A DNA stretch of 64,000 nucleotides from Methanomassiliicoccus sp. (lineage in GTDB: Archaea > Thermoplasmatota > Thermoplasmata > Methanomassiliicoccales > Methanomassiliicoccaceae): assembly GCA_012719175.1 (NCBI GenBank), contig JAAYAX010000004.1, positions 310,001-374,000 on the forward strand, written 5' to 3'. A program made the translations under genes and the position numbers. The notes beneath the pieces were generated by a model. It worked only from the letters and a program-made list of their open reading frames with translations, was not told where the DNA came from and made no database searches. Below, in pieces: positions 24,915-59,229 of the stretch. Each line of letters opens with the position of its first letter. The first letter of the stretch is position 1.

Positions 24915-25334
24915 ATGACCGAGATCAAGAAGATTCTGCTGGGCATCGACGGATCGGACGGTTCGTACAAGGCCGCAGGCTATGCAGCGGAGCTCGCAGC
25001 CCGCACGGGGGCGACGGTGACGCTGATGTTCGTGGTATCAGACCAGTACACCGACCGATTCATTGCCAAACCTACATACACGCCGAACGAGGAGATCATG
25101 GTGGGGACCAGGTTCAACCGCGCCAAGGCCATCATGGAGGAGAAGCATGTGACCTACGATACAGTGGTGGAGATGGGCAACCCCGCCCAGAAACTGATCG
25201 CCACAGGAGATGAGGGGTACGACATGATCGTGCTGGGGACCAGGGGCCTGAGCGCGGTGAGGGAGTTCATGCTGGGAAGCGTCTCCTCGAGGGTCGTGCA
25301 GCACTCCAAGATACCCGTGTTGGTCGTGCCCTAA
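24915..25334 (+). CDS. universal stress protein (UspA family, ATP-binding type)
   Basis: 139 residues, full-length single Usp domain: MTEIKKILLGIDGSDGSYKAA at the N-terminus and the ATP motif G-x2-G-x9-G-S (GTRGLSAVREFMLGS) at about residues 112-126. A short gap to Rpe, which has its own TATA-like element, so probably independent. Confidence 0.93.
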   Translation: MTEIKKILLGIDGSDGSYKAAGYAAELAARTGATVTLMFVVSDQYTDRFIAKPTYTPNEEIMVGTRFNRAKAIMEEKHVTYDTVVEMGNPAQKLIATGDEGYDMIVLGTRGLSAVREFMLGSVSSRVVQHSKIPVLVVP

Positions 25335-26297: not shown

Positions 26298-27344
26298 ATG
26301 GGTGTCAATCTTTCCGATATCGTTCCGGTCCAGGCCAGGGACCTGGAGGATCTTTCGGGTCAGAAGCTTGCTATCGATGCTTACAACGCCATTTACCAGT
26401 TCCTGTCCATCATCCGCGGCCCCGACGGCAATCCCCTGAAGGATTCCCGAGGCAGGGTGACATCCCACCTGGCCGGCCTCCTTTATAGAAACATCAACTT
26501 CCTCGAGGCGGGGGTGCTTCCTGCCTATGTTTTCGATGGCCATCCTCACGTGATGAAGACCCAGACCCTGGTAGAAAGGTCGGAGCGCAGGAGCAAGGCC
26601 CATGATGAGTGGAAGGAGGCCATCACCGAGGGGGACATGGAGCGGGCACGCAGCAAGGCCACCCAGTCCTCGAGGATAAACAACGAGATCGTGGAGTCCT
26701 CCCGCATACTCCTCACGTACCTGGGCATCCCTACGATACAGGCGCCGGAGGAGGGTGAGGCCCAGGCCGCCTACATGGCGATGAAGGGTGATGTGTGGGC
26801 TGCGTCCTCCCAGGACTACGATTCCCTCCTGTTCGGCGCGCCCCGGCTGGTGCGCAACCTTAACATCACCGGCCGCAGGAAGATGCCGGGCGGCAGGGAG
26901 TACCGGGACGTGCACATCGAAGTGGTGGAGCTGGCCAAGGTCCTCGAGGTCAACGGACTGGAGAGCAGGGAACAGCTCATCGACATGTGCATAATGATCG
27001 GCACCGACTATAATCCCGGGATCCGGGGTATCGGACCGAAGAAGGGTTTGAAGCTCATCAAGGAGAACGGGACCCTGGACAAAGCCCTCCAGGCAGCAGG
27101 GCAAAGCATACCCGACAGCGATGTGATCAGGGAGATATTCCTTCATGGGGAGCGTCTTGACGATTACAGCCTGGAGTGGAAGCCCCCCCAGCGGGACAAG
27201 GTCGTCAGCTTCATGTGCGATGAGCACGGATTCTCGGAGCAGCGCATCAACTCCGCACTGGACCGCCTAGAGAAGAAGAAACCGGCGAAAAGGATGGAGA
27301 GCATGCCGGCGTCCCAGTCCAGCCTGGACCGCTGGGGCTCCTGA
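26298..27344 (+). CDS. fen: flap endonuclease 1
   Basis: 348 residues; structure-specific nuclease for Okazaki-fragment flaps. N-terminal MGVNLSDIVP, metal ligands in IDAYNAIYQFL, VFDGHP, EEGEAQAAYMA and SSQDYDSLLFG, the helix-hairpin-helix IGTDYNPGIRGIGPKKGLKLI, and the C-terminal PCNA-interacting peptide QSSLDRWGS. All acidic ligands are present. Upstream of ileS on the same strand, but ileS has its own TATA box. Confidence 0.97.
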   Translation: MGVNLSDIVPVQARDLEDLSGQKLAIDAYNAIYQFLSIIRGPDGNPLKDSRGRVTSHLAGLLYRNINFLEAGVLPAYVFDGHPHVMKTQTLVERSERRSKAHDEWKEAITEGDMERARSKATQSSRINNEIVESSRILLTYLGIPTIQAPEEGEAQAAYMAMKGDVWAASSQDYDSLLFGAPRLVRNLNITGRRKMPGGREYRDVHIEVVELAKVLEVNGLESREQLIDMCIMIGTDYNPGIRGIGPKKGLKLIKENGTLDKALQAAGQSIPDSDVIREIFLHGERLDDYSLEWKPPQRDKVVSFMCDEHGFSEQRINSALDRLEKKKPAKRMESMPASQSSLDRWGS

Positions 27345-27439: not shown

Positions 27440-30400
27440 ATGATAAAGCAGGTTCAAGCGAATTATAATCCTCCTGAGCTTGAGAAGAGAGTTCAAAAGT
27501 TCTGGATCGATACCAACGCCTATAAGTTGACCAAGGAGCTCCGTGCCCAAGGAGTGGACTACTACTTCGTGGACGGTCCCCCCTACACCACCGGATATAT
27601 CCATCTCGGCACCGCCTGGAACAAGACCATAAAGGACGCGGTGGTCCGCTACAAGCGGATGCAGAAGCACAATGTACGGGACCAGCCGGGCTATGACATG
27701 CACGGCCTGCCCATAGAGGTCAAGGTGGAGCAGGCGATAGGGATCAAGAGCAAGAAGGACATTGAGACCTACGGTATCGACAAGTTCGTTTCTACCTGCA
27801 AGGAGTATGCTCTCGGCTTCCAGAAGAAGATGACCGAGCAGTTCCAGGAACTGGGCATCTGGATGGACTGGGAGAATCCGTACATGACCATCGCCCCTAC
27901 CTACATAGAGGCGGCGTGGTGGACGCTCAAGAAGGCATACGATAAGGGTTTGTTGGTATCCTCCAACCGGGTCATCTCCTGGTGCCCCCGCTGCGAGACA
28001 GCGCTGGCAGAGGCGGAGATCGAGTACGCCGAGGAGAAGGACCCGTCCATTTACGTGAGGTTCCCGGTCCGTGGTGAGGCGGGCGTGTCCCTCCTCATAT
28101 GGACCACCACCCCCTGGACACTGCCGGCCAACATGGCGGTGGCCGCTCATCCCGATTACCGTTATGCCAAGGTCAAGTTCATCAAGGGAGATGAGTCCAG
28201 CATAGTCATCATACTGGAGTCCCTCATCGATCAGGTGGGGGAGCTGGAAGGCTGGGAGGAGTACGACGTCCTACAGCTCATAGAGGGCGATGACCTCGTG
28301 GGCAAGGAGTACATACCTCCGCTGGAGGGCGAAGTCGAGTCCCAGGGCTCCATGGTCGGCAAGTGGGTGCACAAGGTCATACCCTCCAAGACGGTGGAGG
28401 CGGACATGACCGGCCTGGTGCACATAGCTCCCGGCCACGGTCCTGAGGACTTCGAGCTGGGCAAGGAGTTCGGCCTGGAGCCTTACTGCCCTGTGGATGA
28501 GAGCGGTAAGTTCACCAATGACGTGGGGCCGCGGTACGCCGGTCTGCACGTGAAGAAGGCCAACGGCCAGATCATTGAGGACCTGAAGTCCAAGGGGCTC
28601 ATGTTCCACCACGGGACCATAGAGCACCGCTATGGGCACTGCTGGAGATGCAACTCCGGCATCATCTACAGGAACACCAACCAGTGGTACCTGAGGATCA
28701 CCCAGGTCAAGGACCTCATGCTCGACGAGATAGCTAAGGTGCGTTGGACGCCGGAGTGGGCAGGATCGTCCAGAGAGTACGACTGGACCATGAACGCCCG
28801 CGACTGGTGTGTGTCCCGGCAGCGCTACTGGGGCATACCCCTGCCTGTCTGGACCTGCAAGTGCGGACATATGAAGGTCATAGGTTCCGTGGACGAGCTG
28901 AATGGCGCGGAGGGTTACCGCAAGGACATGGAGCTCCACCGGCCCTGGATCGACGGGGTCACGCTGAAGTGTGACAAGTGCGGTTCCAATATGAAAAGGG
29001 TGGCCGACGTCCTCGATGTTTGGTTCGATGCCGGTGTCGCCTCCTGGGCCCAGCTCGGGTTCCCCCGCAGCCGCACCGATTTTGACCGCTGGTGGCCCGC
29101 CAAGTTCATCACCGAGGCCCATGACCAGACCCGGGGATGGTTCTACTCCCAGCTTGGCTCGTCGTGCGTGGCCTTCGGCCGCGCTCCCTACCAGAGCGTT
29201 CTCATGCACGGTTGGATGCTCGACCCCCAGGGACAACCGATGTCCAAGAGCAAGGGGAACGTCATAGACCCTGCCAAGGTCATCGCCGAGTTCGGGGCCG
29301 ATGCCCTCAGGTTCTACTTCCTGCGGGTATCCGCACCTTGGGAGGACATCTCCTTCCAGCACGAGGGGGTCAAGAACGCCCGCAAGACCCTCAACATCCT
29401 GTGGAACGTGGCCAACTTCGCCACCACCTACATGTCCATAGACAAGTTCGATCCCACGTCCGTGGACACCGCGGCAGTGCGCGGTGCCATGAGGCCCGAG
29501 GACCGCTGGCTGGTGTCCCGCACCGAGAAGCTCAAGGGAGATGTGACCAGGAACCTGGACTCCATGGACCTGCACAAGGCATGCCGGTCGATAGAGGAGT
29601 TCATCCTGGAGGACCTATCACGTTGGTATGTGCGCCTCATAAGGGACCGTATGTGGAGCGAGTCCACGGACATGGACAAGGTTGCCGCCTACGTCACCCT
29701 GCACGAAGCCCTCATGACCACCATCAAGCTCCTGTCACCAGTATGTCCGCACATAACCGAGGAGATATTCCAGGCCCTGGACGGCTCCAAGGGCTCGGTG
29801 CACATGTGCGACTGGCCCATCCCCGACCTGACACAGGTGGATGACCGCCTGGAAGCATCGATGAAGACCATGCAGGAGCTGGTCGAGGAGATCACCAAAG
29901 AGCGCCAGAAGAAGAACATGAAGCTCCGCTGGCCGCTGCAAAGGATCATCATACACCCGCAGACGCAGGAGACCCTGGACCTCTTGAGGCCGATGGAGGA
30001 CGTTCTTCTGTCCCAGGCCAACGTGAAGAATGTGGAATACGTTGCGCCGGAGCAGGAATGGAGCGAGCTGGTGCTGGATGTCGTACCCAATCCCAACGCC
30101 ATCGGTAAGGTCTACCGCCAGTGGTCGTCCAAGATCGCGGTCCTGCTGAAGAACCGACCCGCAGCCACCATTAAGGAGGCCATAGGCCGCGGGGAATATT
30201 CCCTGGGGATAGAGGGGCAGATAGTGAAGATAGAGCCCAACATGGTATCCTTCACCTCCACTCTACCTGAGAACGTGGCGGGCGTGAAGTTCACCGGAGG
30301 GGACCTGTACATCGACTTCAACATGAACGAGGAGATCGAGGCCGAGGGCTACACCAGAGAGCTCATCCGACGCATCCAGCAGATGCGTAAGGATATGAAA

Positions 30401-31639
30401 CTGGACGTGGAGGAATACATCCGCGTTGAGGTCCGGTCCACCGCGGTCATCGAGGAGTACTTCAAGTCCTGGAAGGAGCACATCATGAAGGAGACCCGGG
30501 CCCTGCAGATGGACTTCAAGACCGAACCCAAGGGGGAGAGGGAGGCCAGTTGGGAGGTGGAGAAACAGCGCATGGATATCGCCATCACCTCCCTCCACCT
30601 GAAGGAAGGGCTCAAGGAGCTCACCAAGGTTCCGGGGCTGTCCCAGGAGGGGGCGCTTGCCGTGATCAGGTCCGGGAAGACAAAAGTGGAGGACCTGAAG
30701 GGCATGGACGAGGCCACTCTGACCGCCATACCTGGTGTCAGCAAGAGCGATGCCCGGAATATCTCTCACTATCTGGCGAGACAGGACATATTGCCCAAGG
30801 CCGAGATAGCCCCCCAGCCCTCAAAGGGCCTGGACGGCGGGGACCGCGACCTCATGATCAACTACCTCATGCGAGTTCCGCGGATGAACCAGCTCAAGGC
30901 CGAAATGGTGGTCGACGCCGGCTACGATACCGTGGACAGGATCGGCCAAGCGTCCAAGGACGACCTGAGGGCCATCAACGGCCTGGGCAACAAGACCGTC
31001 CAGGAGATCATGGACTACGCCGCCGCAGGAGGGTTTACAAAGGTCACGCAGTGCTCCCAGTGCCAAGGGCCGGTGCAGCCTCACGAGCGGGAGTGCCCGA
31101 CCTGCCACGCCCCCGTGGAGGCCTCCTTACAGGAGGTCAAGACGGGGGAGGAAGGAGAGGACAGGGCTCGCCCGATGCCCTCACAGGCCAAGCTGGAGCC
31201 CTCGTTCACCTATCTGATCAAGGAGACCAAGGGTGGCCTTTCATACTCCTTGTTCGAGGAGGCGATCAAGAAAGGGATGCTCGGGTACTGCATCACCCGC
31301 GAGTATCCTCTTAAGATCCGCTCCAAGTACAACCTCGGAGAGACCCCCGTGGTATGGCTGAGCAACATCGGGAAGGAGAACTGCCTCCGGCCCAAGGACC
31401 TGGAGAAGCTGAGCTTCTCCCTGGAGCAGTTCCTCTCCAAGAAGGACGTGATAATCCTCCTGGACGGTCTGGAGTATCTCATCACCAACAACAACTTCCT
31501 GACGGTGCTGAGGTTCATCCAGAGCCTCAGGGACCAGGTGGCCATAAACCACTCCATCCTGATGCTGGCAGTGAACCCCTCCACCCTGGACCCCCACGAG
31601 CTCAACCTGTTGGAGAAGGAAGTGGACGCGAACCTCTAA
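27440..31639 (+). CDS. ileS: isoleucyl-tRNA synthetase with C-terminal HhH - zinc ribbon - DUF835 extension
   Basis: 1,399 residues; ordinary archaeal IleRS is about 1,030-1,060. The enzyme part (1 to about 1050) has the HIGH-like HLGT (55-58), the editing domain (TTTPWTLPANMAVAAHPD), the Cys pairs of the C-terminal zinc region and MSKSK (601-605). Beyond it come tandem helix-hairpin-helix motifs (about 1055-1200: LTKVPGLSQEGALAVI, LTAIPGVSKSDARNI, LRAINGLGNKTVQEI), a zinc ribbon (CSQC, CPTC, about 1204-1225), an acidic linker, and a DUF835 domain (about 1250-1399). No stop or frameshift lies between the parts. ATG at 27440 has AAAGGGA and a TATA box (TTTTAAAG) upstream; an earlier in-frame start at 27356 is rejected. 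Confidence 0.95.
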   Translation: MIKQVQANYNPPELEKRVQKFWIDTNAYKLTKELRAQGVDYYFVDGPPYTTGYIHLGTAWNKTIKDAVVRYKRMQKHNVRDQPGYDMHGLPIEVKVEQAIGIKSKKDIETYGIDKFVSTCKEYALGFQKKMTEQFQELGIWMDWENPYMTIAPTYIEAAWWTLKKAYDKGLLVSSNRVISWCPRCETALAEAEIEYAEEKDPSIYVRFPVRGEAGVSLLIWTTTPWTLPANMAVAAHPDYRYAKVKFIKGDESSIVIILESLIDQVGELEGWEEYDVLQLIEGDDLVGKEYIPPLEGEVESQGSMVGKWVHKVIPSKTVEADMTGLVHIAPGHGPEDFELGKEFGLEPYCPVDESGKFTNDVGPRYAGLHVKKANGQIIEDLKSKGLMFHHGTIEHRYGHCWRCNSGIIYRNTNQWYLRITQVKDLMLDEIAKVRWTPEWAGSSREYDWTMNARDWCVSRQRYWGIPLPVWTCKCGHMKVIGSVDELNGAEGYRKDMELHRPWIDGVTLKCDKCGSNMKRVADVLDVWFDAGVASWAQLGFPRSRTDFDRWWPAKFITEAHDQTRGWFYSQLGSSCVAFGRAPYQSVLMHGWMLDPQGQPMSKSKGNVIDPAKVIAEFGADALRFYFLRVSAPWEDISFQHEGVKNARKTLNILWNVANFATTYMSIDKFDPTSVDTAAVRGAMRPEDRWLVSRTEKLKGDVTRNLDSMDLHKACRSIEEFILEDLSRWYVRLIRDRMWSESTDMDKVAAYVTLHEALMTTIKLLSPVCPHITEEIFQALDGSKGSVHMCDWPIPDLTQVDDRLEASMKTMQELVEEITKERQKKNMKLRWPLQRIIIHPQTQETLDLLRPMEDVLLSQANVKNVEYVAPEQEWSELVLDVVPNPNAIGKVYRQWSSKIAVLLKNRPAATIKEAIGRGEYSLGIEGQIVKIEPNMVSFTSTLPENVAGVKFTGGDLYIDFNMNEEIEAEGYTRELIRRIQQMRKDMKLDVEEYIRVEVRSTAVIEEYFKSWKEHIMKETRALQMDFKTEPKGEREASWEVEKQRMDIAITSLHLKEGLKELTKVPGLSQEGALAVIRSGKTKVEDLKGMDEATLTAIPGVSKSDARNISHYLARQDILPKAEIAPQPSKGLDGGDRDLMINYLMRVPRMNQLKAEMVVDAGYDTVDRIGQASKDDLRAINGLGNKTVQEIMDYAAAGGFTKVTQCSQCQGPVQPHERECPTCHAPVEASLQEVKTGEEGEDRARPMPSQAKLEPSFTYLIKETKGGLSYSLFEEAIKKGMLGYCITREYPLKIRSKYNLGETPVVWLSNIGKENCLRPKDLEKLSFSLEQFLSKKDVIILLDGLEYLITNNNFLTVLRFIQSLRDQVAINHSILMLAVNPSTLDPHELNLLEKEVDANL

Positions 31640-33566: not shown

Positions 33567-34011
33567 GATGTTTCCTCTCTAGGCCATCAGGCGTTAAAAT
33601 CCTTATGCATGAACGAGCCACCTCTACAAGGAGGTCCCCGATCTTGCTGATGATATAGTTCAGCGGTAGAAGAATCCGGCCAGCGAGCTATTGCTTCTTC
33701 TTACCCTTTTTCTTGAGCCGCGCTGTGCCGAGCGTCCACTGATCCTTGAGATTGATGCTGTGAAACTTTGGTGGTTATAGCTGAAGGACGTCATCGTTCC
33801 TCTCTCCTTGATCCCCAGCCTGCTGATGTGCAGCGTACCCCTCAAGAGCGTGAAGGAGCACCATGAGGAAGAGGCTGCCAACGCCCAACCTAAGGTCATC
33901 TCAGGGATCGCTCGAAATGACAAAGAGTGGTGCGGTCCGGGCCCAACCCTCTTTCCAATATTTTTTTAATGGTTGGGGGATGTATTCTATACAAGACCAC
34001 TTGGTGTTCTA
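33567..34011 (+). other. intergenic region, possibly decayed sequence
   Basis: About 445 bases between divergent genes. An 87-codon minus frame (33660-33923) is rejected for lack of a ribosome site and odd composition. Plus-strand frames contain protein-like but interrupted bits around 33800-33950 (for example a SLLMCSVPLKSVKEHHEEEAA reading), which may be a dead gene remnant. A TATA-like TTTTTTTAAT at 33961-33970 probably drives the UspA gene. Confidence 0.35.
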
Positions 34012-34446
34012 ATGCAATGGTACCGGAAGATACTCATCCCCACTGATGGCAGCAAGTATGCTCAGAACGCGGTAGCACGCGGCCTCTACATCGCCAAGAT
34101 GTTGAACGCGGACGTGACCCTTCTCACCGTGATTGATGTCAAGGCCACGGTGAGTCTGCAACAGGGCCTGGGCGTGCCTGATGAGTACGCTTACCAGCAG
34201 AAGTCAGCGGAGGCCGCGGTGGAGGCAGCGGAGGCGATGGCCAAGGAGATGGGGGTTAGGGCGACCTCCATAGTAAAGAGGGGTTCACCGGCCTATGACA
34301 TCATCGAGGAGTCAAAGAACCATGACCTCATAGTGATGGCCAGTCGGGGGAGGACGGGAGTGGCCAGGCTGTTCATTGGGAGTGTGGCCGAGAAGGTTGT
34401 CCGGTTCGCGGCCTGTCCAGTGCTGGTCGTCAAGACCAAGGAGTGA
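34012..34446 (+). CDS. universal stress protein (UspA family)
   Basis: 144 residues: MQWYRKILIPTDGSKYAQNAV and the C-terminal ATP motif with one change, A-S-R-G-x9-G-S (ASRGRTGVARLFIGS), so nucleotide binding is likely kept. The ATG at 34012 is chosen over 33973 because the family starts just before YKKILVPTDGS. Second Usp of the window; about 30% identical to the first by eye, so not a recent duplicate. Confidence 0.93.
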   Translation: MQWYRKILIPTDGSKYAQNAVARGLYIAKMLNADVTLLTVIDVKATVSLQQGLGVPDEYAYQQKSAEAAVEAAEAMAKEMGVRATSIVKRGSPAYDIIEESKNHDLIVMASRGRTGVARLFIGSVAEKVVRFAACPVLVVKTKE

Positions 34447-34601: not shown

Positions 34602-36593
34602 TCAGTTCCGCTTACGACCCCACAGTCCGTATCCGACTATCCCGATACCGCATAGGGCCAGGGCAACGATCGCCACCTGACCTGCCATGGTCCCGAAGAA
34701 CGATGGTTTTGAGCCATCATCGGCACCGACAACGGTGGATATGTTGACGCTGCCCACGATGTCGCCTTCACCATCTTTCTCTAGAGCTTTTACCTGGTAG
34801 TAGTAGGTCATGTTGCTCTGAACATCTCCATCCAGGAACTCTGTTCCTGTTGTTGATGCCAAGTACTCCATGACCGTTTGGTTCTCTCCCCGGTAGATAT
34901 TGTAACCAGTGATGTTCTCTTCCTCAGCTACTGGAGCATTCCAATCGAGGGATACGCTGCCGTTGACCAGGTAAGCGGAAAGATCGGTGGATCCTGGAAG
35001 GTTCGTGGAAGGCGTTAAGGTCGTTACGCTCACAAGCTCGCTCATCGCTCCCTCGCCAACTACGTTGATAGCGGACACCCGATAGTAGATCGTTGTTGAG
35101 TTATCCAGACCCTCATGAACATAGCCGGCCTCAGAGAGCAAAATGGATTCAAAGGTACCGTTGGGGTCTAGGGACCAGGAGAGATTGTAGCTCGATATGG
35201 GAGCACCCCCATCGGTCTCAGGAGCGTTCCAGGTGAGTATGACCTCATCCTGGGAGGGCACTGCAGTAAGGTTCATGGGAGCCCCTGGTGCCAACATCGA
35301 TACCGATGGTGCAACTGTCACGGCATTGCTTTTTCCTCCGACCCCCGCACTGTTGTGCGCACCTACGGCGAAACTGTACTGGACACCGTTGGTCAAGCCT
35401 GTGATCTGGGTTGTGGCTCCAGTAACATGTGCCACATCCCTTCCGTCCTGGTAGACGACGTAATAGTCGATCGCCGCACCCCCGTCGTCTGCAGGTTCGC
35501 TCCAGTAGAGGCGAACCTCTCCGTCACCAGGGGATGCCCTCAAAGCGGTCGGCGCTCCTGACATCTGTATCAAAGCATGAGGAGTGACCTTGACCGTAGA
35601 GCTCAGGGCTCCAGTTCCGGCGCTGTTGTGGGCGGCCACCGCGAAGCTATAACTAACGCCATTGTTGAGGCTTTTCACGATGGTGTTTGTCGTAGAAACG
35701 TGAGCGACGTCCTTACCGTTCTGGTAAACGACATAATAGTTTATGGCCGCTCCACCGTTATCTGCAGGCTTGTTCCAAGTGAGGCGGACCTCTCCGTCAC
35801 CTGGGGACGCCTTCAGTGAACCAGGAGCTCCCGGTATCTGCACCGATGCATGAGGTGTTGCCTTCACTGTAGAGCTCAGGGTGCCAATGCCCGCACTGTT
35901 ATGGGCAGCCACTGCGAAGCTGTAACTGACCCCGTTGCTAAGCGCTTTCACGACAGTGCTAGTAGCTTTGACATGAGCCACGTCCTTTCCGTTCTGATAG
36001 ATCACGTAGTAATCGATCGATGCTCCCCCGTTGCTCGATGGTGCTTTCCAGGACAATGCTACCTGAGCGTCACCGGCGGTTGAGGTCAGAGAGGTAGGCG
36101 CACCCGGCTTCTTTATCGTAGGGGTCGGTGCTGGATCGTCGTTCTGGGCAGCCAGCAGGGCCTTTATGGTAGGCTCCAGATTGGCCCTGATCGCGTCCTC
36201 AGCTACCAGAGCTTTGTCCCCGACGAAGACCGAGGGGATCATCTGTTTCGGGACGTTGTATCTGTGGTTAAAATCCTGATAAAGGTCCCAGTTGGCACTG
36301 TTCTGGGTGACCTCATACCTTAAGAAAGTAACTTGAGGGTATTTTTTCTCCATGCTGTCAATGTACGGCTCAATTGCAGCGCAATGAGGGCAGCTGATGC
36401 CGTAGAAGAAGTACACCTTGATGCCGCTGGTCGCGCTCGCTCCAAGTGTCAACATCTCCGAGGGCATCCCTTGGGACCTGTCGTCCGTTAAGGAGCTGAC
36501 ATCCTTGTCACCGTTCAAGTTGGCAAGGTTCGTTCCGAGAGCAAGAACAAGCATCAAGATGAATGCGATGATCATCAGGGGGAGTGGCCTCAA
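34602..36593 (-). CDS. exported thioredoxin-like protein with five fibronectin type III domains
   Basis: 663 residues. Signal peptide/anchor (PLPLMIIAFILMLVLALG), then a thioredoxin-fold domain at about 55-150 with active site CPHC (FFYGISCPHCAAIEP) and a cis-Pro-like IPSVFVGD segment. A Pro-rich linker leads to five fibronectin type III repeats of about 88-95 residues (PGAPTSL/GSLKASPGDGEVRLTWNxPADNGGAAI...). The first three are near copies in protein and DNA. A transmembrane helix and basic tail (GRKRN) end it. So a redox domain is held outside the membrane on a stalk. CPHC is the DsbA-type motif, suggesting disulfide formation or isomerisation at the cell surface. Confidence 0.85.
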   Translation of the reverse strand: MRPLPLMIIAFILMLVLALGTNLANLNGDKDVSSLTDDRSQGMPSEMLTLGASATSGIKVYFFYGISCPHCAAIEPYIDSMEKKYPQVTFLRYEVTQNSANWDLYQDFNHRYNVPKQMIPSVFVGDKALVAEDAIRANLEPTIKALLAAQNDDPAPTPTIKKPGAPTSLTSTAGDAQVALSWKAPSSNGGASIDYYVIYQNGKDVAHVKATSTVVKALSNGVSYSFAVAAHNSAGIGTLSSTVKATPHASVQIPGAPGSLKASPGDGEVRLTWNKPADNGGAAINYYVVYQNGKDVAHVSTTNTIVKSLNNGVSYSFAVAAHNSAGTGALSSTVKVTPHALIQMSGAPTALRASPGDGEVRLYWSEPADDGGAAIDYYVVYQDGRDVAHVTGATTQITGLTNGVQYSFAVGAHNSAGVGGKSNAVTVAPSVSMLAPGAPMNLTAVPSQDEVILTWNAPETDGGAPISSYNLSWSLDPNGTFESILLSEAGYVHEGLDNSTTIYYRVSAINVVGEGAMSELVSVTTLTPSTNLPGSTDLSAYLVNGSVSLDWNAPVAEEENITGYNIYRGENQTVMEYLASTTGTEFLDGDVQSNMTYYYQVKALEKDGEGDIVGSVNISTVVGADDGSKPSFFGTMAGQVAIVALALCGIGIVGYGLWGRKRN

Positions 36594-58440: not shown

Positions 58441-58755
58441 CATATCATCTCTGATATTACTTCAGGTCCTTACTGCCATCCATACAGAAAAAAGTACGTC
58501 ATATTTTTGATATTTTCATTAATGAATATATTCCAGCATACTGTATGAGGTCATTAGATTATCAGTATCAAGACCACGAAGTAAGACTAATGGCGTTCAA
58601 ATATTTACTAATGCCAGTAAATATCAAAATCAATATAACTTTGAAATAATCCGCAATTGTAGCGGCATTATTATCAGTTTTTGATTATTCCGATTGGACA
58701 AACCCCTAATACCTACAAACCTACTTTAGTTGGACAAGGAACAGGAGAGAGTCCG
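58428..58755 (+). other. AT-rich leader region before the DUF835 gene
   Basis: About 328 bases, strongly AT-rich; holds the rnpB terminator at its left end and the DUF835 promoter and ribosome site at its right end. No gene or structured RNA recognised. Confidence 0.4.
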
Positions 58756-59229
58756 ATGAAACTGTCCAAGGGTAAGTTCTATCTGTTCGAGGAGAGGGTC
58801 CCGCTCAGAACGCATCAGGTATTGAGAAAAGAAATGGATAATGGAAGAAAGACACTATATATCTCGAAGAACCCACCCCGGCTTCTCAGGAGCCAATTGG
58901 ACTTTGACGAGCACATGTTAGAGACCATGTGGTTGAGCACCCGCCCCAACGACGAGTGCATCCCGCCCATGAACCTTGAGGTGTTTGAGAAGTACATCAA
59001 CCAATTCCTAGCCGAGAACAAGGACGGCATAATCGTTCTCAACGGCCTGGACGTCCTGGAGATGTGGAACGGGTTCCGCCCTGTCCTTGATGTGCTGGCT
59101 AGAGCCTCTGACAAGGTGAATGAGGACGGCAGCAACTTGATCATCAGCTTAGACCCACGCAATCACTTCCCCCAGAAGCTCACAATGCTGGAGCATATAT
59201 CCGACGAAGTGGTCTCGAGCTACGCCTGA
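58756..59229 (+). CDS. stand-alone DUF835 protein
   Basis: 157 residues: KLSKGKFYLFEERVPLRTHQVLRKEMDNGRKTLYISKNPP, IPPMNLEVFEKYINQFLAENKDGIIVLNGLDVLEMWNGF and LIISLDPRNHFPQKLTMLEHISDEVVSS. Same family as the end of the IleRS fusion (ISREYP/IxKNPP, xxLxKFIxxFL, IIL-DGLEYL). DUF835 looks like a RecA/KaiC-like fold without a P-loop and is common in archaeal signalling proteins. ATG at 58756 with GGAGAG upstream; the frame open from 58681 is longer but starts at TTG. Confidence 0.85.
   Translation: MKLSKGKFYLFEERVPLRTHQVLRKEMDNGRKTLYISKNPPRLLRSQLDFDEHMLETMWLSTRPNDECIPPMNLEVFEKYINQFLAENKDGIIVLNGLDVLEMWNGFRPVLDVLARASDKVNEDGSNLIISLDPRNHFPQKLTMLEHISDEVVSSYA

Follow-up and report, generated by a model that had tools for sequence, protein, structure and literature searches.

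In GCN2, a tRNA sensor resembling histidyl-tRNA synthetase (HisRS), a class II enzyme, is joined to a kinase output. Amino-acid-starvation sensing in archaea is, to our knowledge, poorly understood. Synthetase paralogs with new jobs include HisZ, PoxA, SbzA and the LeuRS-I of Sulfolobaceae (reviewed in PMC9437257). Galperin and co-workers list DUF835, as an inactivated KaiC, among the output domains of archaeal response regulators, and the DUF835 fusions described there involve receiver (REC) and PAS modules only (PMC5847659). The present analysis concerns ileS in a 64,000-nucleotide stretch of Methanomassiliicoccus sp. DNA (contig JAAYAX010000004.1, positions 310,001 to 374,000; hereafter the window). 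This gene encodes a complete isoleucyl-tRNA synthetase (IleRS) followed by two helix-hairpin-helix (HhH) modules, a CxxC..CxxC zinc ribbon and a C-terminal DUF835 domain (Table 1). The computational comparison shows that the fusion is conserved across its class, not a one-off, and that charging and tail can each be lost while the other is kept. This points to a second, selected function of the fusion protein, independent of aminoacylation and probably regulatory.

The synthetase body of the window protein scores 954 bits against the NCBIfam IleRS model TIGR00392 (cut-off 621) and sits in the archaeal clade of the IleRS tree. It is close neither to PmIleRS2 (661 bits) nor to PmIleRS1 (456 bits), enzymes whose structures are identified in PMC10485003. 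Its HLGT signature is the usual archaeal HxGT form, seen also in Archaeoglobus, haloarchaea and methanogens, and was therefore dismissed as a sign of inactivity. The protein is the sole IleRS of a genome reported to be 99.6% complete; the only other synthetase-like matches there are frames of 927 and 962 amino acids (aa), taken to be ValRS and LeuRS, so that the fusion must be the housekeeping IleRS. To judge from its motifs, this sole IleRS of the cell is an editing and apparently active enzyme, and from its sole status in so complete a genome we infer that it charges tRNA(Ile).

The reading frame is open upstream from GTG 27356, passes through ATG 27440 and ends at the stop codon 31637-31639. 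A purine-rich GGAAAGGGA stretch precedes ATG 27440, and the N-terminus predicted from this codon (MIKQVQ...) agrees with the starts of relatives. A first-pass annotation, made from the sequence without database searches, had proposed a synthetase extended in a single frame by about 350 residues of HhH, zinc-ribbon and DUF835 modules. This description was borne out: the frame 27440-31639 is open over 1399 aa, the tail begins at about aa 1051 and is about 350 aa long, and its make-up is recovered by Pfam and NCBIfam matches and by the cysteine motif. No stop or frameshift occurs near 30,600, either here or in independent assemblies with 94% and 76% identity (L041, L042, L044). Since the junction is open in these assemblies and in 30 or more of 60 related genomes, it reflects neither chance nor an assembly error or frameshift. 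No relative was found in which ileS and the tail are separate genes; relatives lose either the tail or catalysis. An apparent split in one genome (G013) looks like frameshifts, the gene being broken at several places.

The fusion is present in about 36 of 61 related genomes and spans about 25 families of the class, which is probably Thermoplasmata. Among 400 genomes of this class, many further families had strong matches to DUF835 of the IleRS type, in frames of 1100-2929 aa. Reading of the open frames confirmed IleRS bodies in f7, f8, f11, f12, f13, f15, f16, f17, f19, f20, f21, f23, f24, f26, f27, f29, f31, f32 and f34 (here and below, labels beginning with f, G, C and L denote families, genomes, contigs and loci). 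Among 390 genomes of the phylum, the fusion was not found in other classes, leaving aside a 1395-aa frame with a DUF835 match in G424, which is interrupted by stops. DUF835 in those classes lies mainly in frames of 331-367 aa, taken as ordinary. Archaeal IleRS from outside the class (L055-L120) align mostly to about aa 1050, which corresponds to the tail-free length.

In several families, the enzyme has decayed and the tail has been kept. Both the HIGH and KMSKS signatures are gone from the fused core in f11, f32 and f34, and KMSKS is gone in f16, f21, f26 and f29. The TIGR00392 score falls to 214-346 in the f11 and f32 members scanned, and the f34 core has no NCBIfam match. From the window protein to the decayed forms, PF00133 drops from 418 to 61-107 bits, and Anticodon_1 drops from 125 bits to only 91-95. 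A second IleRS-like gene was found in all of the genomes with a decayed fusion that were searched (16/16), and in 15 of the 16 it is full-length (about 990-1140 aa) and separate from the fusion. The tabulated companions of the decayed-fusion families carry motifs of the HIGH and KMSKS type and fall into one separate clade of the tree (support 1.0). The one companion that was typed, L172, is clearly IleRS2-like (946 bits to PmIleRS2 versus 360 to PmIleRS1). The fused enzyme stands alone in G128, G140, G092, G071 and the Methanomassiliicoccales searched. An intact fusion occurs together with a companion in f8 (five genomes) and f23 (two of three genomes). In f23 the companion shows GVHH, a form known from some IleRS2; that of f8 (L256:965-4117 (+)) deviates in KMSKS (KISRA) and in the editing motif, the fused enzyme being intact. 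The f8 companion may not be fully active, and decay in the opposite direction may be possible. From the overall pattern we infer that the companion probably preceded, and allowed, the decay of the fusion in other families. A 53%-identical partial IleRS of archaeal type, possibly a bin contamination, was also seen beside the decayed fusion of G119 (f26; C277 and C336).

The decayed genes are maintained. In nearly all regions and pairs compared, pN lies far below pS (these being safer figures than dS, which is mostly saturated); for G137/G143, for example, pN and pS are 0.07 and 0.80 in the catalytic region and 0.012 and 0.56 in DUF835. The decayed fusion genes are thus not pseudogenes and are under purifying selection. 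Constraint is inverted between the intact families and f11: among the former the catalytic region ranks highest in conservation (59%), followed by DUF835 (56%), and within f11 conservation rises from the catalytic region (30%, the lowest) through the anticodon domain (42%) and C-terminal domain (49%) to DUF835 (56%, without L147). If the protein had an unrelated, structural role as a scaffold, for example in RNA polymerase- or DNA-associated complexes, and the IleRS body were a mere platform, this would agree with the very variable spacers and with the resemblance of the HhH and RecA folds to Rad51/RadA. However, the anticodon and C-terminal domains of f11 outlast the catalytic part, which suggests a tRNA-related contact, and we consider such a role distinctly improbable. 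It has also to be asked whether DUF835 could be an input domain, through which the signalling network controls IleRS activity and throttles translation. The window enzyme does look active, and DUF835 is joined elsewhere to receiver and PAS modules (PMC5847659). In f11, f32 and f34, however, there would be no synthetase activity to control, and yet the protein persists. This persistence implies that a mechanism common to all forms needs an output other than charging, and control of the synthetase by DUF835 is in our estimate improbable.

The converse separation, in which the tail is lost and the enzyme kept, has occurred in two or more lineages. The f2 enzymes and the f1 IleRS of G007, G008, G010 and G014 terminate at the end of DUF5915, and these tailless enzymes nest within the fused clade of the tree. 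In G014, a decayed DUF835 relic with stops (L155:3691-3987 (+)) follows the new stop codon at a distance of about 200 bases. One further candidate, G011, was dropped as uninformative, the contig ending at IleRS aa 1077. These losses show that the tail is dispensable for charging, as would be expected of a neutral read-through fusion without function or of an assembly artefact. Nevertheless, the occurrence of the fusion in about 25 families, the very strong conservation of DUF835, the purifying selection and the open frame in independent assemblies all speak against such an origin, which is almost certainly not the explanation.

The modules of the tail differ in constancy. In the window protein, HHH_5 matches with an E-value of 1e-16 and DUF835 with 8e-33 (118.7 bits; Pfam cut-off 33.1), and the four cysteines of the zinc ribbon are invariant across 30 relatives. 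HhH modules were found with a profile of our own in nearly all fused forms; recognisable HhH was not detected in f13 and f20, and zinc ribbons number 0 to 4 per protein. The constant addition is therefore DUF835, which is often the best-conserved segment of the fusion. The zinc ribbon was ruled out as an essential part, many fused families being without it. DUF835 is not quite always at the extreme C-terminus, as L147 runs about 175 aa beyond it. The spacer is very variable: it measures about 30 aa in f13 and, with TPR repeats included, about 1600 aa in L134. The latter locus (L134:501-9287 (-)) encodes a 2929-aa IleRS-DUF835 protein, whose spacer also carries several zinc ribbons. Synthetases often carry additional domains that assist tRNA binding, and the tail might chiefly serve charging or positioning, with HhH and zinc modules adding tRNA affinity and DUF835 serving to oligomerise the protein or to dock it on a ribosome or multi-synthetase complex. 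The near-universal presence of HhH would fit this role, as would a weak NCBIfam match to the HhH of L32e. Nevertheless, selection maintains the tail in genomes that have a dead synthetase and a different enzyme for charging tRNA(Ile), lineages with an intact enzyme have dropped it, and DUF835, not the nucleic-acid modules, is the most constant part. A role chiefly in charging therefore appears rather unlikely.

An AlphaFold2 model of DUF835, built from 51 sequences, reached a pLDDT of 93.5 and a pTM of 0.89, and Foldseek with this model returned FlaH/ArlH (TMq 0.69), PH0284 (TMq 0.73), KaiC and RecA. The Walker A motif GK[ST] is absent at the P-loop position in the 51 sequences, a single GKS lying elsewhere. 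The domain is thus predicted to adopt a KaiC/RecA-like fold lacking Walker A. The IleRS-type domain has a signature of its own (RPKDLEK, EYLITNN, QSLRDQVAI, LLEREVD), which is common to intact and decayed fusions and absent from the nine other DUF835 domains of the window's genome. In a tree of DUF835, the domain proved too short to resolve the deep branching order. Of the roles first proposed for the tail, DNA repair finds no support and a role in repair or recombination was rejected, since the Foldseek and NCBIfam matches to Rad51/RadA can be put down to HhH modules and a RecA fold, both of them generic; ribosome contact is equally unsupported. A tie between isoleucine charging and regulation, the remaining proposal, is the best-supported reading, because the enzyme decays and the tail stays in several families.

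The wider occurrence of DUF835 may bear on a link to signalling. Tailless f2 genomes have 0-1 DUF835 genes and the tailless genomes within f1 have 2-5; fused Methanomassiliicoccales mostly have 6-13, the exceptions being incomplete drafts with 4-5 and G047, fused, with 2. It is only suggestive that tail loss accompanies loss of other DUF835 proteins. The IleRS-type domain is also found at the C-terminus of receptor-like proteins with two transmembrane segments and PEGA or CarboxypepD_reg domains (f13; L141, L143) and of zinc-ribbon proteins (f11; L144, L146). Stand-alone IleRS-type proteins of 161-248 aa (L148, L149, L159, L160) coexist with the fusion where seen (f6, f19, f23). In f19 and f23, a gene of about 1970 aa directly upstream of the ileS fusion (L246:5073-10976 (-), L247:135-6050 (+); also L221, L222) ends in the IleRS C-terminal domain (DUF5915; profile E-value 1e-54). 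Its product has helical repeats, CARDB-like domains and a middle domain that recurs in large proteins of the class, and relatives occur in f16, f20, f27 and f31.

Retention of the tRNA-side domains together with DUF835 in the decayed forms points to a sensor or adaptor of tRNA(Ile)/isoleucine status in the KaiC/DUF835 signalling network of archaea, a role to which we give an about even chance. The body would engage tRNA(Ile) via its anticodon and C-terminal domains, perhaps aided by the HhH and zinc modules, and would thus report charging or isoleucine status, and DUF835 would dock a partner in the network. In the window genome a single polypeptide would carry out both charging and sensing. 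Where an IleRS2-like enzyme takes over charging, the fusion could become a dedicated sensor similar to GCN2, in which a RecA-like adaptor stands in for the kinase. Several observations weigh against this proposal. The companion in G126 is a 400-aa fragment and G132 has no IleRS match above the threshold used, so that the companion rule leans partly on drafts. The KISRA motif of the f8 companion indicates that replacement has not always followed the same course, and long branches leave the grouping of the decayed forms uncertain. Moreover, the absence of HhH in f20 and f13 and of the zinc ribbon in many families means that neither module is essential, and the loss of DUF835 genes in f2 may be plain genome reduction. 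A class-wide archaeal amino-acid-starvation sensor derived from IleRS, bifunctional or pseudo-synthetase, acting via an inactivated KaiC domain and a counterpart of GCN2 in logic, is a more tentative extension, plausible but somewhat doubtful.

Table 1. Features of the ileS fusion and its upstream neighbour (window coordinates; aa, position in the protein)
Feature	aa	Coordinates	Strand	Basis
FEN1-like nuclease gene, upstream neighbour		26298..27344	+	ORF lists; name by sequence inspection
ileS fusion gene, 1399 aa, one open frame from ATG to stop		27440..31639	+	ORF list, Pfam/NCBIfam matches
Class I synthetase catalytic domain, editing domain inserted	18-639	27491..29356	+	PF00133, 418 bits
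HIGH-type signature HLGT	55-58	27602..27613	+	motif table
CP1 editing domain, WTTTPWT and APGHGPEDF intact	~196-400	28025..28639	+	match to 1wk8; motif table
KMSKS-type signature PMSKSKGN	600-607	29237..29260	+	motif table
Anticodon-binding domain	688-836	29501..29947	+	PF08264, 124.7 bits
IleRS C-terminal domain DUF5915	854-1050	29999..30589	+	PF19302; tailless relatives stop here
HhH module 1	1054-1115	30599..30784	+	HHH_5, own profile
HhH module 2	1135-1199	30842..31036	+	HHH_2/HHH_3, own profile
Zinc ribbon CxxC-x10-CxxC	1205-1222	31052..31105	+	Cys motif CSQCQGPVQPHERECPTC
DUF835, KaiC/RecA-like fold without P-loop (predicted)	~1252-1399	31193..31636	+	PF05763, AF2 model, Foldseek

The order FEN1-like gene followed by ileS is the same in family f5. 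Two genes for UspA-like stress proteins lie near ileS (24915-25334 and 33973-34446 (+)), and a 663-aa frame at 34602-36593 (-) appears to combine a thioredoxin-like domain, repeated FN3-type domains and a C-terminal transmembrane segment. The lone DUF835 protein noted earlier at 58756 does exist (58681-59229 (+), 182 aa) and is an ordinary DUF835 protein, not of the IleRS subtype. Two further DUF835 genes lie just past the window (G000:C4 374180 and 375072).

A limited literature search turned up no description of an IleRS-DUF835 fusion or of this pseudo-IleRS family. Appended domains and synthetase-derived regulators are already known, and it is the IleRS-DUF835 fusion itself that is apparently unreported within the limits of that search. 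Through the conserved fusion, isoleucine charging is physically coupled to a domain from the KaiC-type signalling family of archaea. Evolution has separated the two in both senses, leaving some lineages with charging but no tail and others with the tail but no charging, which makes for an unusually clean natural experiment. The protein family that results lends itself to direct testing, and its IleRS pseudo-enzymes may be labelled as ordinary isoleucine--tRNA ligases by automatic annotation.

The window protein shares its body, motifs, editing domain and C-terminal DUF5915 with archaeal IleRS (TIGR00392, HxGT type). The enzymes of Archaeoglobus, methanogens and haloarchaea are about 40-48% identical to its body and end at about aa 1050; unlike them, it adds the 350-aa HhH-zinc-DUF835 tail, and its family includes catalytically decayed forms in several families. 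The tail has the fold, the missing Walker A and the general sequence family in common with the inactivated KaiC domain (PF05763; PMC5847659), but represents a subtype of its own that is attached to a synthetase. HisZ, PoxA, SbzA and LeuRS-I (PMC9437257) are likewise synthetase-derived and retained for non-charging roles, although no IleRS with a DUF835 tail is among them and, in contrast to those paralogs, it is the vertically inherited IleRS gene that has decayed here, its place apparently taken by an IleRS2-like enzyme. GCN2 offers the working analogy of a synthetase-derived, catalytically dead, tRNA-binding body with an output module. The dead synthetase-like domain has its parallel in f11, f32 and f34 and partly in f16, f21, f26 and f29, not in the window protein, and a Pfam scan of the latter gave no protein kinase domain. 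The anticodon domain kept in the decayed forms is only suggestive with regard to binding of uncharged tRNA. The fusion thus differs from GCN2 in its unrelated synthetase class, its RecA-like adaptor output and, in the window, a synthetase that looks active.

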